NCBI GenBank assembly: GCA_903952205.1
Contig: CAJBEZ010000037.1
Location: 186,001 to 250,000 of the forward strand
Source: an uncultured Desulfomonile sp.
GTDB lineage: Bacteria; Desulfobacterota; Desulfomonilia; Desulfomonilales; Desulfomonilaceae
DNA length: 64,000 nt
Direction of reading: 5' to 3'
In this document: positions 18,427-56,844 of the stretch, piece after piece
How positions within the stretch are numbered: position 1 is the stretch's first letter
How the letters are laid out: each line of letters starts with the position of its first letter
The notes under the pieces: generated by a model
Database searches by the model: none
The model's input: only the letters and a program-made list of their open reading frames with translations
Told to the model about the DNA's origin: nothing
Made by a program: the position numbers and the translations under genes

Positions 18427-18794
18427 AATGAGATTACCTCCTATTATAATTAGCTATTATGAACAATTTTGGCACGAATAAGCAAGGCGCCGCAATTTGA
18501 CAGGAATGGAACCTCTTTAAAAATCATCTTATTTATTAAAGATGTAGCGTTATAATATTTAACCACTCCAGTCAATACGCGCTACGAAGACGGAGGACAC
18601 GTAAGTTTTTCACTTCACGATGTCTAATTAACTTCATCAAATTAAACTAGTTATATTAATAAGATATATTCCTAAGTATATTTTGGATTAGCTATTATTT
18701 TTAACTAGCTAATAAAAAACTATATTTTTTTCTTGACAGTAATCAGCGTTGTCATGTAAAGGGATTTCCAACATTTCGAGCTGGGAGGAAGGGT
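18427..18794. promoter_or_regulatory. AT-rich divergent intergenic region upstream of dacB and the first outer membrane protein
   Basis: No gene is seen in these 368 bp. The 12-mer ATTAGCTATTAT occurs twice in the same orientation, at 18449-18460 and 18687-18698. The second copy overlaps an 8-bp inverted repeat, ATTAGCTA (18687-18694) / TAGCTAAT (18706-18713), about 45 bp upstream of the TTGACA at 18733, so it is a candidate operator. The dacB ribosome binding site is at the left end. Confidence 0.45.
18733..18760 (+). promoter_or_regulatory. Promoter of the first outer membrane protein gene
   Basis: TTGACA (18733-18738), 16 bp, then TGTAAA (18755-18760), a modest -10. The TTGACA lies 62 bp before the ATG. 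The paralogue at 55130 has a TTGACA 63 bp before its ATG and a nearly identical ribosome binding site. Confidence 0.45.
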
Positions 18795-19877
18795 ATGTTG
18801 AGAAGAATCCCTTACACGCTGTTGGTATGTCTAGTTCTTTTGGCGTCACTTAGTTTTGTCAGCACGTCGTGGGCCGTAAACCCCGATGACTCGCTTGACG
18901 TTCTACTTAAACCCAACAACTCAAATCTGGCGGCTAATCCTGTAGTCCATCAAACCAAGTCGGCCAAGCGTTCAAATTTTGGGTTTCCGGCCCCTTGGAC
19001 TGGAAATCCCTATGTTCAAGGACCCTCGACTATCAGAAAGGTCAATGCTCCGCCTCCAATGTTCTTTCCCGCCGCGGCGCCCATGATAGGATGTTTCTTG
19101 CCAACACCTAGAGTTGGACAGTGGCAAATTGGTGTGCAAGCCATATTTGCAAACATTCGTGCTCAGGTTCAGTGGCCGCCAAATTTTGCGAATTGGTTCG
19201 GCGGATGGGGTTACCAGGATTGGACTGATTTTGCCAATAACCTTGGTCTGCCCGCCCATCAAGTCATTCCAGAAGTCAGCGCCAAGTATCAGTTCCGATG
19301 CAATTGGGCCCTCCAATACACCGGACTAGGTACCGAAATAAAAGGCGGTAAATGGGTCGACAACTGGTTTATCTTCGGTTTCCAGGGTGGCGGCGGATCG
19401 CCTCAACTTTGGAGCCCTGGGCAGCAAGTTCAAAGTCGCTGGCAATATTCATATCAAAAAGTCGGCCTAGTCTATGACGCCGTGAAGAACTGTAAAGCAT
19501 CCATAAGCCTATTTGGCGGATGGGCGCACGCGGACAGCAGAATCGACGCAAATTGTTTCAATTGCGGCAATTGGCAGAGCACGCTTAGTAAAAGCATAGA
19601 TACAGCTGCTGTAGGCCTTGAATTACAAAAATGCATGACTACTGCGCCCAATGGAGGTACTTTCTCCTGCGAGGCAAAAGCTGTAGGTATGTTCGGCGAT
19701 GACGCAGCGGGAGTGGATGTTCAAGTAGGTGGGAGATACAGCATCCCGGTAAATTGCGGAAGATGGGGCTACATGAAAGGTGGATATAGGCTAATCGATC
19801 TTAAAAAGTCCCAGAACGACTTCGCAATCAAGACCGCACTTGACGGTGGTTTTGTAGAGATGGGCTTCATCTTCTAA
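18795..19877 (+). CDS. Outer-membrane-type protein of unknown family (paralogue 1)
   Basis: The family is not recognised. The 360-residue protein has a signal peptide (MLRRIPYTLLVCLVLLASLSF, cut near SWA), then a Pro/Asn-rich stretch, then a beta-rich domain with alternating aromatic residues ending in FVEMGFIF, a C-terminal aromatic typical of outer membrane barrels. It is a paralogue of the protein at 55130: shared features are CFLP near the domain start, QFRCNWALQYT versus QIKCNWGLRFT, and IPVNCGRWGYMKGGYR versus MPMNCGRYGYLEGGYR. The conserved cysteines suggest disulfides. The ribosome binding site GGGAGGAAGGGT lies directly upstream. Confidence 0.75.
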   Translation: MLRRIPYTLLVCLVLLASLSFVSTSWAVNPDDSLDVLLKPNNSNLAANPVVHQTKSAKRSNFGFPAPWTGNPYVQGPSTIRKVNAPPPMFFPAAAPMIGCFLPTPRVGQWQIGVQAIFANIRAQVQWPPNFANWFGGWGYQDWTDFANNLGLPAHQVIPEVSAKYQFRCNWALQYTGLGTEIKGGKWVDNWFIFGFQGGGGSPQLWSPGQQVQSRWQYSYQKVGLVYDAVKNCKASISLFGGWAHADSRIDANCFNCGNWQSTLSKSIDTAAVGLELQKCMTTAPNGGTFSCEAKAVGMFGDDAAGVDVQVGGRYSIPVNCGRWGYMKGGYRLIDLKKSQNDFAIKTALDGGFVEMGFIF

Positions 19878-19902: not shown

Positions 19903-20017
19903 AGCCGATGAATGAGGGGAACCTACATGACAAGATCCGGGGTTCCTAATGATCAAAGATGAAACGATTCCGGATCGAATCAAAAAGGGACGCGCAATTC
20001 TCTAACATTCATCGGCT
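19903..20017 (+). ncRNA. Candidate structured RNA with possible pseudoknot
   Basis: A perfect 12-bp closing stem AGCCGATGAATG (19903-19914) / CATTCATCGGCT (20006-20017) encloses two interleaved pairings. One is GGAACC (19918-19923) with GGTTCC (19941-19946). The other is GATCCGG in that hairpin's loop (19934-19940) with CCGGATC (19970-19976). The interleaving is the topology of an H-type pseudoknot, or of two alternative folds. It begins 26 bp after the stop of outer membrane protein 1 and ends 13 bp before a terminator, so it could be a 3' UTR or a processed small RNA. No Rfam family is recognised. Confidence 0.4.
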
Positions 20018-20030
20018 TTTAAGTTTTGTG

Positions 20031-20087
20031 AGCCCGGCCGTATAACGGCGTCTCCCAGCTCGACCCCACCGGTCGGGCTTCTTTTTC
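20031..20087 (+). terminator. Terminator with long loop
   Basis: AGCCCGGCCG (20031-20040) pairs with CGGTCGGGCT (20070-20079), 10 bp with one G-U, followed by TCTTTTTCTCT. The loop is 29 nt and may fold further. It would end the transcript of outer membrane protein 1 and the candidate RNA. Confidence 0.65.
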
Positions 20088-20255
20088 TCTATAGCCCGCC
20101 GTATTTAAGAAAAGCTGAATTCCAAGGTAAGAATTAATAAACCATAGCAGCGTCGCCACGGGCTAGTCAACTAATTTAAATCAAAAGAAAACCCGCCAAC
20201 AGCCTTACACGAATATATCAAAACCATTTTTCTCAAAAGAATTAAAATTCAGGAG

Positions 20256-54750: not shown

Positions 54751-55129
54751 ATAAACCCGGCCTAAACTGATCAGGCGCCGGGGCTTAGATTGGATATGTC
54801 GAGAAACAATGGAATTAGTTTAGGGATAAAATATCAATATAACCGGTATTTGACTTAGCGCGTTAGTGTAATATCTTCGGTCATAATTAAATTTAATTTA
54901 GAATTAAAATCTATTACCTACTGTTTTAATTACGTTCTAAACAACAATTAATAACTAACCGTTATATCAATAGGTTAGTAACTATAATAGGTCAACTGAA
55001 AGCCTCGTGATCTTAAACCACTTAAAATCAATACTAATATTTTTAGAATCATATCTAATAAATTACTTGACATAAAATTAGTTTTGAATCATTAGGAGAA
55101 TCCAGGACATTCAGTGAAGGAGGGAGGGT
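54751..55129. promoter_or_regulatory. Very AT-rich region upstream of outer membrane protein 2
   Basis: No gene is seen in these 379 bp. An inverted repeat ACTAACC (54954-54960) / GGTTAGT (54973-54979) lies about 90 bp upstream of the TTGACA at 55067. The region matches the AT-rich composition of the 18427-18794 gap before paralogue 1. Confidence 0.4.
55067..55095 (+). promoter_or_regulatory. Probable promoter of outer membrane protein 2
   Basis: TTGACA (55067-55072) with a weak -10 such as CATTAG (55090-55095, 17 bp). It sits 63 bp before the ATG, against 62 bp in paralogue 1. The -10 alone would not be convincing; the shared geometry is the argument. Confidence 0.35.
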
Positions 55130-56293
55130 ATGCTTAAATTAAAGCGCCTGAAGGTATTGGTTTGTCAAGTAGTATGGGTTTTTGTCGCAACCACCGCATG
55201 CTGGGGTTACACCGGGCCGGATATTTCTGGACCAGGTGTACAAGGAGACGCTCTGTCAGCAGACCCGACTTATCAAAATAGGTCGGTTCCGCAGCAGCAG
55301 TTTCCGTCGCAGCCGCAAAGAGGATTGTCGCAAACCTCACGCGGCACGGGTGGCTATTCTAATTCCGGGCCGGTCTACCGACCGTATGAGCCGACCAGGG
55401 CGCCTGTTCTAGCTCCTTGCGGGCCTCAGGGCTGTCCTGTGCCGGGAGTGGCAGCAGGTAATCCTAACGCTATACCTGCGCCTGGAATGTTTGGGCTGTT
55501 TTCTCAACAGGGCATGGGATTTGGAGCACCATGCGTAGGCTCATTTTTGCCTCACGTGGGCGCCAAACAGTTCCAGGTGAGCGCTCAGGTTTGGTATCCA
55601 ACTCTTTACCGGAGCGAAGTTATCTGGGGTACCAACATGGCTGGTGGCGCAGGGACTCAACTAGATCTGACCAGGGATGATCTATTGGGACCGAATCAGT
55701 ATTTCGGGGTATATGAGGGAAGGTGCCAGATAAAGTGCAATTGGGGCTTACGGTTCACTTTCATGCCCATCAATTACAGGGCAAATTCCAATCCCCGAAA
55801 TGGTTTTTGGTTTGCAAACCAGTGGTTTGCCCCGACTATTAATACGTTGACCGTATGGGATAGATACACATACCGGGCTGAGTTGGTATATGACTGGTTT
55901 CACAAGCAGAATGCAGTGTCGAGTCTGTTTGCCGGGTATATCATGTACGATGATAAACTTACCATCAGTCAACCCAATATAGCTCCAAATTGGAGTCGAA
56001 GCCGATCGAGCACCCGGGGATTGTACACAGCGGGCGCCAGCATTGAGCGGCTCATAAGAGATATTGGCTCAGCCACAGTTAGTACCGAATGCAGATGGTC
56101 GGTGAATTTTGACAACGACCATTTCGGGTGGGACGGAGTATGGTTAGGCAGAGTATACATGCCTATGAATTGTGGAAGGTATGGTTACCTGGAAGGTGGG
56201 TATAGATGGTATGTTTTGGAGACTAGTCAACCCACCGATTATGACAAGACGAATTTGGCAGGGCCTACCGCTGGGATTGGTCTGATCTTTTAG
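55130..56293 (+). CDS. Outer-membrane-type protein of unknown family (paralogue 2)
   Basis: A 387-residue protein with a signal peptide (LKVLVCQVVWVFVATTACWG), then about 100 residues of Pro/Gln/Ser/Gly-rich linker, then a beta-rich domain homologous to the protein at 18795: CVGSFLPHVGAKQFQVSAQVWY, CQIKCNWGLRFT, MPMNCGRYGYLEGGYRWYVLE and the ending AGIGLIF. It is about 27 residues longer, mainly in the linker. The ribosome binding site GGAGGGAGGGT is nearly the same as in paralogue 1. The barrel-like C-terminus suggests outer membrane location. Confidence 0.75.
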   Translation: MLKLKRLKVLVCQVVWVFVATTACWGYTGPDISGPGVQGDALSADPTYQNRSVPQQQFPSQPQRGLSQTSRGTGGYSNSGPVYRPYEPTRAPVLAPCGPQGCPVPGVAAGNPNAIPAPGMFGLFSQQGMGFGAPCVGSFLPHVGAKQFQVSAQVWYPTLYRSEVIWGTNMAGGAGTQLDLTRDDLLGPNQYFGVYEGRCQIKCNWGLRFTFMPINYRANSNPRNGFWFANQWFAPTINTLTVWDRYTYRAELVYDWFHKQNAVSSLFAGYIMYDDKLTISQPNIAPNWSRSRSSTRGLYTAGASIERLIRDIGSATVSTECRWSVNFDNDHFGWDGVWLGRVYMPMNCGRYGYLEGGYRWYVLETSQPTDYDKTNLAGPTAGIGLIF

Positions 56294-56489: not shown

Positions 56490-56708
56490 TCACCCACCGA
56501 AAGATGGGTGGATGAATTCAACCCGGTCCCCTTCTTCAACAGAGCAGATCGAGAAATATTTTCTATGAACAAATTTACCGTTAAGTTCAACTATTACCGC
56601 CGGGTCATCCTCCTGGTTCATTTCCAGAAGCGACTGAATGGTAAGGCTCGGTTCATCGAAATCTTCAGGGTATCCGTTTAATATGAATTTCACGTTATTA
56701 CACACCAT
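56490..56708 (-). CDS. ThiS/MoaD-type sulfur carrier protein
   Basis: A 72-residue ubiquitin-fold protein ending in the Gly-Gly tail (VEFIHPSFGG) that would be adenylated and thiocarboxylated. It has the beta-grasp strand pattern (NVKFILNGYPEDFDEPSLTIQSLLEM) and the ThiS-like ILNG start. It may serve thiamine, molybdopterin or another sulfur transfer; the nearest user in the window is the molybdenum hydroxylase operon, but a terminator lies between. The start ATG at 56708 is assigned by the track of the frame; no strong Shine-Dalgarno sequence is seen. Confidence 0.7.
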   Translation of the reverse strand: MVCNNVKFILNGYPEDFDEPSLTIQSLLEMNQEDDPAVIVELNGKFVHRKYFSICSVEEGDRVEFIHPSFGG

Positions 56709-56844
56709 GGAAAGTGATCAATCACAGAAAATGCGTTTGCACATGAGCATGATCCGGAATCCTTCGGGGATTCTGAATGTCCTCAGAATTTAATTGAAGC
56801 GCGCATAAATGCCTCTGGTCGATTACCGCACTTTAGCGAAATAC

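Follow-up and report, generated by a model that had tools for sequence, protein, structure and literature searches.

Conserved structured 3′ UTR and class-specific UTR complementarity among outer-membrane β-barrel paralogs of Desulfomonilaceae

The Class A Gene and Its 5′ UTR

The window analyzed here (the whole 64,000-nucleotide stretch of Desulfomonile DNA) carries on its plus strand an ORF (18795–19877) for a 360-amino-acid outer-membrane β-barrel protein, a member of a paralog family, in which this gene belongs to class A. A signal helix and a β-barrel are predicted for the protein (AlphaFold model, moderate confidence, pLDDT 73.9), and porin and OmpT-type barrels are the solved folds nearest to this model, with 9nh1 at the top. 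The C-terminus reads ...GFIF, and there is no match to a Pfam family. The named records that include the class A protein are Desulfomonile and other Deltaproteobacteria MAGs; the relatives are Desulfomonilaceae (Desulfobacterota), and the protein search did not find it outside that family.

A probable promoter can be read upstream of the gene (18733–18761, plus strand), consisting of TTGACA, about 16–17 nt, and TGTAAA/GTAAAG. A TTGACA/TGACA box is located at a comparable distance in class A orthologs, and the candidate is absent from the list of a strict promoter scan. If it holds, the class A transcript would probably start just 5′ of a hairpin (18766–18803, plus strand; CAACAU...AUGUUG) that is supported by orthologs and folding and whose loop contains the Shine–Dalgarno sequence and whose stem contains the start codon. 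The hairpin sequence (CAACATTTCGAGCTGGGAGGAAGGGTATGTTGAGAAG) is nearly invariant in class A orthologs, the proteins of which are 41–79% identical, and the hairpin forms in 15 orthologs on folding; it has no covariation because its sequence hardly varies. The loop includes the site UCGAGCUGGGAG (18776–18787, plus strand), which overlaps the Shine–Dalgarno sequence, consisting of it and the bases that precede it, and is the perfect reverse complement of positions 20052–20063 in the 3′ UTR of the same gene.

The Structured Element and the Terminator of the Class A 3′ UTR

The class A 3′ UTR is about 210 nt in length, stop codon and terminator tail included, and ends at about position 20088. A preliminary description of the locus had proposed a structured RNA behind the outer-membrane-protein gene, closed by a perfect 12-bp stem. 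This stem (P1 clamp) is present: AGCCGATGAATG (19903–19914, plus strand) pairs with CATTCATCGGCT (20006–20017) at 12 of 12 positions, and the pairing is supported by the minimum-free-energy (MFE) fold and by covariation. Inside the clamp, the P2 region (5′ strand at 19916–19924, plus strand) pairs in the nested MFE model as 19916–19921/19998–20003 and 19922–19924/19986–19988, with a GGGAA/UUCUC core that is invariant within the genus, and the P4 hairpin (19934–19976, plus strand) has the core GATCCGG (19934–19940)/CCGGATC (19970–19976). The 121 nt from 19900 to 20020 fold at −42.9 kcal/mol, compared with −26.0 ± 3.5 kcal/mol for dinucleotide shuffles (z −4.8; 0 of 200 as low).

Covariation was counted in 16 comparable orthologous 3′ UTRs of Desulfomonilaceae (family f1), on a plain sequence alignment (A3). 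Compensatory changes occur in 4 of 9 aligned pairs of the P1 clamp and in 4 of 7 pairs of the P4 core, and 91% of cells are paired in P1, P4 and the terminator taken together. Double changes were found in 8 pairs and 21 cells, compared with 3.7 and 8.2 in shuffles (0 of 500, a count that ignores kinship), and with slid partners, which gave at most 4 pairs with double changes, the covariation signal is gone. G–U pairs outnumber A–C cells, which would be G–U pairs on the opposite strand, by 27 to 15, in keeping with a plus-strand RNA. When the orthologs are folded singly, all 200 shuffles are beaten in 10 of 16, the remainder are mostly moderate, and G011 is no better than shuffled; the clamped long hairpin is found again in nearly all of them. 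Sixteen orthologs thus retain both the clamp and a stem of the GATCCGG type through compensatory changes, and in the window the element folds better than every shuffle; this supports it as a conserved structured RNA, on covariation evidence that is good but not final.

The preliminary description had also interleaved the P4 core with a second helix, GGAACC (19918–19923, plus strand)/GGTTCC (19941–19946), to form a pseudoknot. Both pairings are indeed perfect complements where they had been placed, and five of the six GGAACC/GGTTCC pairs are kept in four same-genus relatives, which gives the interleaved reading its appeal. The complete helix is, however, found in the window alone, its pairs in the relatives do not vary, and it is missing outside the genus: family-wide, its columns are 56.7% paired, compared with 57.4% after shuffling. 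Moreover, the GGGAA strand pairs with UUCUC in a nested hairpin near the clamp in five of five same-genus sequences. The covariation that supports the clamp and the GATCCGG-type stem therefore does not extend to the GGAACC/GGTTCC helix, and a pseudoknotted RNA with interleaved helices as its functional core is very improbable; one long, irregular, nested hairpin is the better model.

No known RNA family is evident, as had been noted: the Rfam gathering score was reached nowhere in the whole window or at nine related loci, and among hits at E < 10 none was convincing (RF02278 and RF02869 are weak and far under the cut-off). A small ORF within the element was rejected as an explanation, the shared frame being 9–11 amino acids in two of the five same-genus sequences and 31–34 in the others, with no ATG frame common beyond the genus. 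A repeat or mobile element was rejected as well, the element being single-copy in the genome. The strict scan of the plus strand gave no separate promoter for a 3′ RNA in the interval from gene to element.

Past a short, U-rich linker seen in the sequence, an intrinsic terminator (20031–20088, plus strand) begins 13 bp beyond the clamp, where the preliminary description had located it, and ends in a tail that is U-rich in the RNA. In its long form, AGCCCGGCCG (20031–20040) pairs with CGGTCGGGCT (20070–20079), followed by TCTTTTTCT; in the short form, which was found by scan on the plus strand, AGCTCGACC (20057–20065) pairs with GGTCGGGCT (20071–20079). The forms compete, and folding of the terminator alone favors the short one in the window and three relatives. 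Across the 16 orthologs, 98% of terminator cells are paired, and elsewhere in the phylum a terminator model gave only weak terminator-like matches.

The long form places in its loop an anti-Shine–Dalgarno motif, CUCCCAGCUCGA (also written CTCCCAGCTCGA; loop, CUCCCAGCUC; 20052–20063, plus strand). This motif is outside the interval covered by the preliminary description (19903–20017) and had been missed there. Its 12-nt perfect match to 18776–18787 is the sole other match in the window, even when one mismatch is allowed. An 11-nt core of the motif (CTCCCAGCTCG) is invariant in 16 of 16 orthologs. AGCUCG, which includes a U–G wobble in the short terminator form (competing arm, AGCCCG), is also kept in 16 of 16; this invariance costs the short form a G–C pair, which suggests selection for pairing with the CGAGCU of the target site, not for the terminator alone. 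Accessibility of the motif is mixed, as some predicted folds leave it only partly unpaired, and the 5′ hairpin must open too for the pairing to form, which counts against an antisense reading.

Matching of 5′ and 3′ UTRs Among the Paralog Classes

In total, 78 gene copies of the family were gathered, with several paralogs per genome, and were assigned to classes A, B, C, Cp, D and E by their 5′ UTRs. Every 3′ UTR was compared with every 5′ UTR within one genome, and the median of the longest complement was taken for each combination of classes (L007 and L030 were left out of the own-gene and same-genome comparisons). Nearly all class A genes tested have a 12-nt perfect complement (one has 13 nt and one has 11 nt), whereas shuffled sequences give a mean of 6.2–6.7 nt and a maximum of 8–11 nt. 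The class A 3′ UTR matches the 5′ UTRs of classes A and B (12 nt each); with class C, D or E it has no long antisense match. The class C 3′ UTR matches classes A (13 nt), B (13 nt) and C (10 nt), and the remaining matches are those of B to E (11 nt; maximum, 16 nt), E to E (9 nt) and Cp to A (10 nt). Matches overall thus span 9–16 nt against a background of 6–7 nt, the shuffle level at which most other combinations of classes stand.

Own 5′ and 3′ UTRs match each other in classes A, C and E. In class B, the mRNA contains the target, but its 3′ UTR lacks a motif to match it and is complementary to class E instead. The sequence GGACAUUCAG/CUGAAUGUCC, on which classes B and E rely, bears no relation to a Shine–Dalgarno core, and G-rich ribosome-binding sites therefore do not account for the matches. 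The matched motifs of 5′ and 3′ UTRs are kept across 11 genera. Given the near-invariance of the 5′ hairpin and the 3′ motif, inter-UTR covariation within classes is slight, and matching is present at the level of the classes. The strength of the signal differs among classes: duplex energies are well under those of shuffles for class A and most of class E and weak for most of classes C and D, the class D link is weak (7 perfect nt, or 10 with wobble), class Cp is mixed, and the motif is missing in some members of classes C and E.

The 4.78-Mb genome has four sites for the 11-mer core of the class A motif, none of them outside the UTRs of the porin-like paralog family: two are Shine–Dalgarno sites, in the class A 5′ UTR and in the 5′ UTR of an unlinked class B gene (contig 64), and two are terminator loops, of class A and of class C (contig 9). 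Larger relatives have extra sites, in numbers near those of a reversed-pattern control. In the window, the longest complement is 12 nt for the class A gene and at most 9 nt for the 56 other ORFs of at least 150 codons.

Stable 3′ hairpins protect mRNAs. The hairpin and terminator of class A could stabilize an abundant mRNA as an elaborate transcript end and do nothing more, and the complementarity would then simply follow from the presence of a Shine–Dalgarno sequence and a terminator rich in G and C; the capacity of part of the motif to form the short terminator fits with this. However, matches of 12–13 nt are far above those of shuffles and reach past the Shine–Dalgarno core, class-specific motifs match specific 5′ UTRs, including by way of GGACAUUCAG, which is not a Shine–Dalgarno sequence, and the 11-mer is confined genome-wide to UTRs of the paralog family. 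We regard this explanation as improbable.

A class E paralog is also present in the window (ORF, 55130–56293), with AGGACATTCAG at 55104–55114, before its Shine–Dalgarno site. The corresponding antisense motif, CTGAATGTCCT (56773–56783), is located about 480 nt past the class E stop codon and is followed by a AAAAGCCGGCG...CGCCGGCTTTT hairpin. Between the gene and this distant motif is a reverse-strand ORF of 72 amino acids (56490–56708), the product of which ends in ...FGG and, we presume, resembles a ThiS-type sulfur carrier. A similar arrangement is seen in the same-genus genome G005 (L182).

Further features are specific to single classes. Class B 3′ UTRs (L024, L029, L021 and others) have a different clamp, GAATGGCGCCGG...CCGGCGCCATTC, and two copies of CTGAATGTCC; past the clamp, a GAAAAGCCC...GGGCTTTTC hairpin, in which CCCCTTTC could pair with GAAAGGG, is followed by a conserved CGAAAGGGTATGTTGAGAAG, which resembles the beginning of a further gene. 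In class C 3′ UTRs (L140, L018, L143 and others), a conserved upstream GGAGGGA is complementary to CCCTCCC in the terminator loop of the same UTR and is possibly a built-in decoy that mimics a Shine–Dalgarno site. In G012, TTGAGC replaces TCGAGC in the 5′ UTR of the class A gene (L007), and GCTCA replaces the usual GCTCG in the 3′ UTR of the class C gene (L142, contig 227), a matched change in two unlinked genes and a single case. Class D terminator loops (L141, L164–L173, L178, L179) often include AATACCCTCC, which complements GGAGGGTGTT before the start codon of the same gene in a 10-bp duplex that includes one wobble; class D loci also have another conserved motif, CTCCCCCGAT, upstream.

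Proposed Antisense Regulation and Comparison With Known Systems

We consider it likely that the class A 3′ UTR, either as such or as a released fragment, functions as an antisense RNA against translation of its own mRNA and of the mRNAs of sister outer-membrane proteins; these genes would probably shut off themselves and one another by means of their mRNA tails. The terminator loop CUCCCAGCUCGA would pair with the 5′ hairpin loop UCGAGCUGGGAG over the Shine–Dalgarno sequence, both in class A and in the unlinked class B paralog, and this loop–loop pairing would block ribosome binding. An antisense role for the 115-nt covarying P1–P4 hairpin itself was rejected, as it gave no such match to other classes; its role is probably structural, protecting or delimiting the 5′ part of the processed RNA. 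The 3′ piece would most likely be cut from the mRNA and act mainly in trans. The gene for Hfq is present in G000, and two RNase E/G proteins are encoded in the genome.

Alternatively, control might be exerted in cis, with the tail of an mRNA pairing with its own 5′ UTR and no free small RNA involved. Such a mode has a precedent in icaR of Staphylococcus aureus, in which a similar C-rich 3′ UTR motif (UCCCCUG) pairs with the Shine–Dalgarno region of the same mRNA (PMC3868564), and it agrees with the matching of own UTR pairs in classes A, C and E. It is at odds with class B, which has a target without a matching motif of its own and a 3′ UTR that matches class E; this target and the cross-class matches favor action in trans, so cis pairing is probably not the sole mode. 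The class E motif of the window, about 480 nt behind its gene and beyond the small reverse-strand ORF, likewise fits better with trans action. Purely cis control is thus unlikely.

In the same reading, class C RNA would act on its own class and on others, class E RNA on its own and class B RNA on class E, and the outcome would be negative feedback and cross-repression that balance which outer-membrane protein is made. We suggest, more tentatively, that the 3′ UTRs of the β-barrel paralogs in Desulfomonilaceae may wire the family as a whole, each class ending in its own kind of structured RNA with an exposed silencing motif. The 3′ UTRs of class A would act on classes A and B, those of class C on A, B and C, and those of B and E on E, providing RNA-only feedback across the family and a mutual exclusion among its surface proteins.

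Autoregulation by 3′ UTR-derived RNAs is so far represented by few single cases, and the evidence from sequence suggests that a family of surface-protein paralogs evolved such RNAs class by class. If this is true, the family would be a natural set of orthogonal RNA repressor–target pairs, would show how gene duplicates acquire RNA-only cross-control, and would open the study of post-transcriptional regulation in Desulfobacterota, for which literature searches found no paper; they likewise found none on such RNAs in Desulfomonile. Desulfomonile tiedjei is culturable. Because of this, and because the pairs can be transferred to reporters in E. coli, the reading is directly testable.

Small RNA control of outer-membrane porin mRNAs, as proposed here, is known from NcS25 of Burkholderia, which pairs with the Shine–Dalgarno site of its porin target (PMC10117139), and from MicC, a porin-repressing sRNA encoded beside ompN (PMC5745476). 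Both have separate sRNA genes, whereas the RNA described here is a porin-like gene's own 3′ UTR, and the gathering score of the Rfam ncS025 model is not reached. As in icaR, the 3′ UTR exceeds 100 nt (about 210 nt) and has a C-rich motif complementary to the Shine–Dalgarno sequence of its own mRNA; unlike in icaR, the match spans 12 nt instead of 7, the motif is located in a terminator loop, and other genes are matched too. Action of the icaR type takes place within one mRNA and involves a cut by RNase III.

The closest parallels are OppZ and CarZ of Vibrio cholerae, autoregulatory 3′ UTR-derived sRNAs that depend on RNase E for maturation and on Hfq (PMC7398697), and that a review of 3′-end sRNAs, the text of which does not include the terms ‘paralog’ or ‘family of’, describes as the first cases of self-control (PMC9438474). 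The class A RNA resembles them in its origin in the 3′ UTR of a protein-coding gene, its Rho-independent terminator at the end, its perfect 12-nt complementarity to the translation initiation region of its own mRNA, and the presence of Hfq and RNase E genes; like them, it may be processed from the mRNA and bind Hfq. Membership of the OppZ/CarZ type is not claimed, the resemblance being one of nucleotide sequence only. Unlike these sRNAs, the RNAs considered here belong to unlinked β-barrel paralogs and would form a family-wide set with class-specific motifs and cross-class targets, with a 115-nt clamped hairpin in front in class A, in another phylum.
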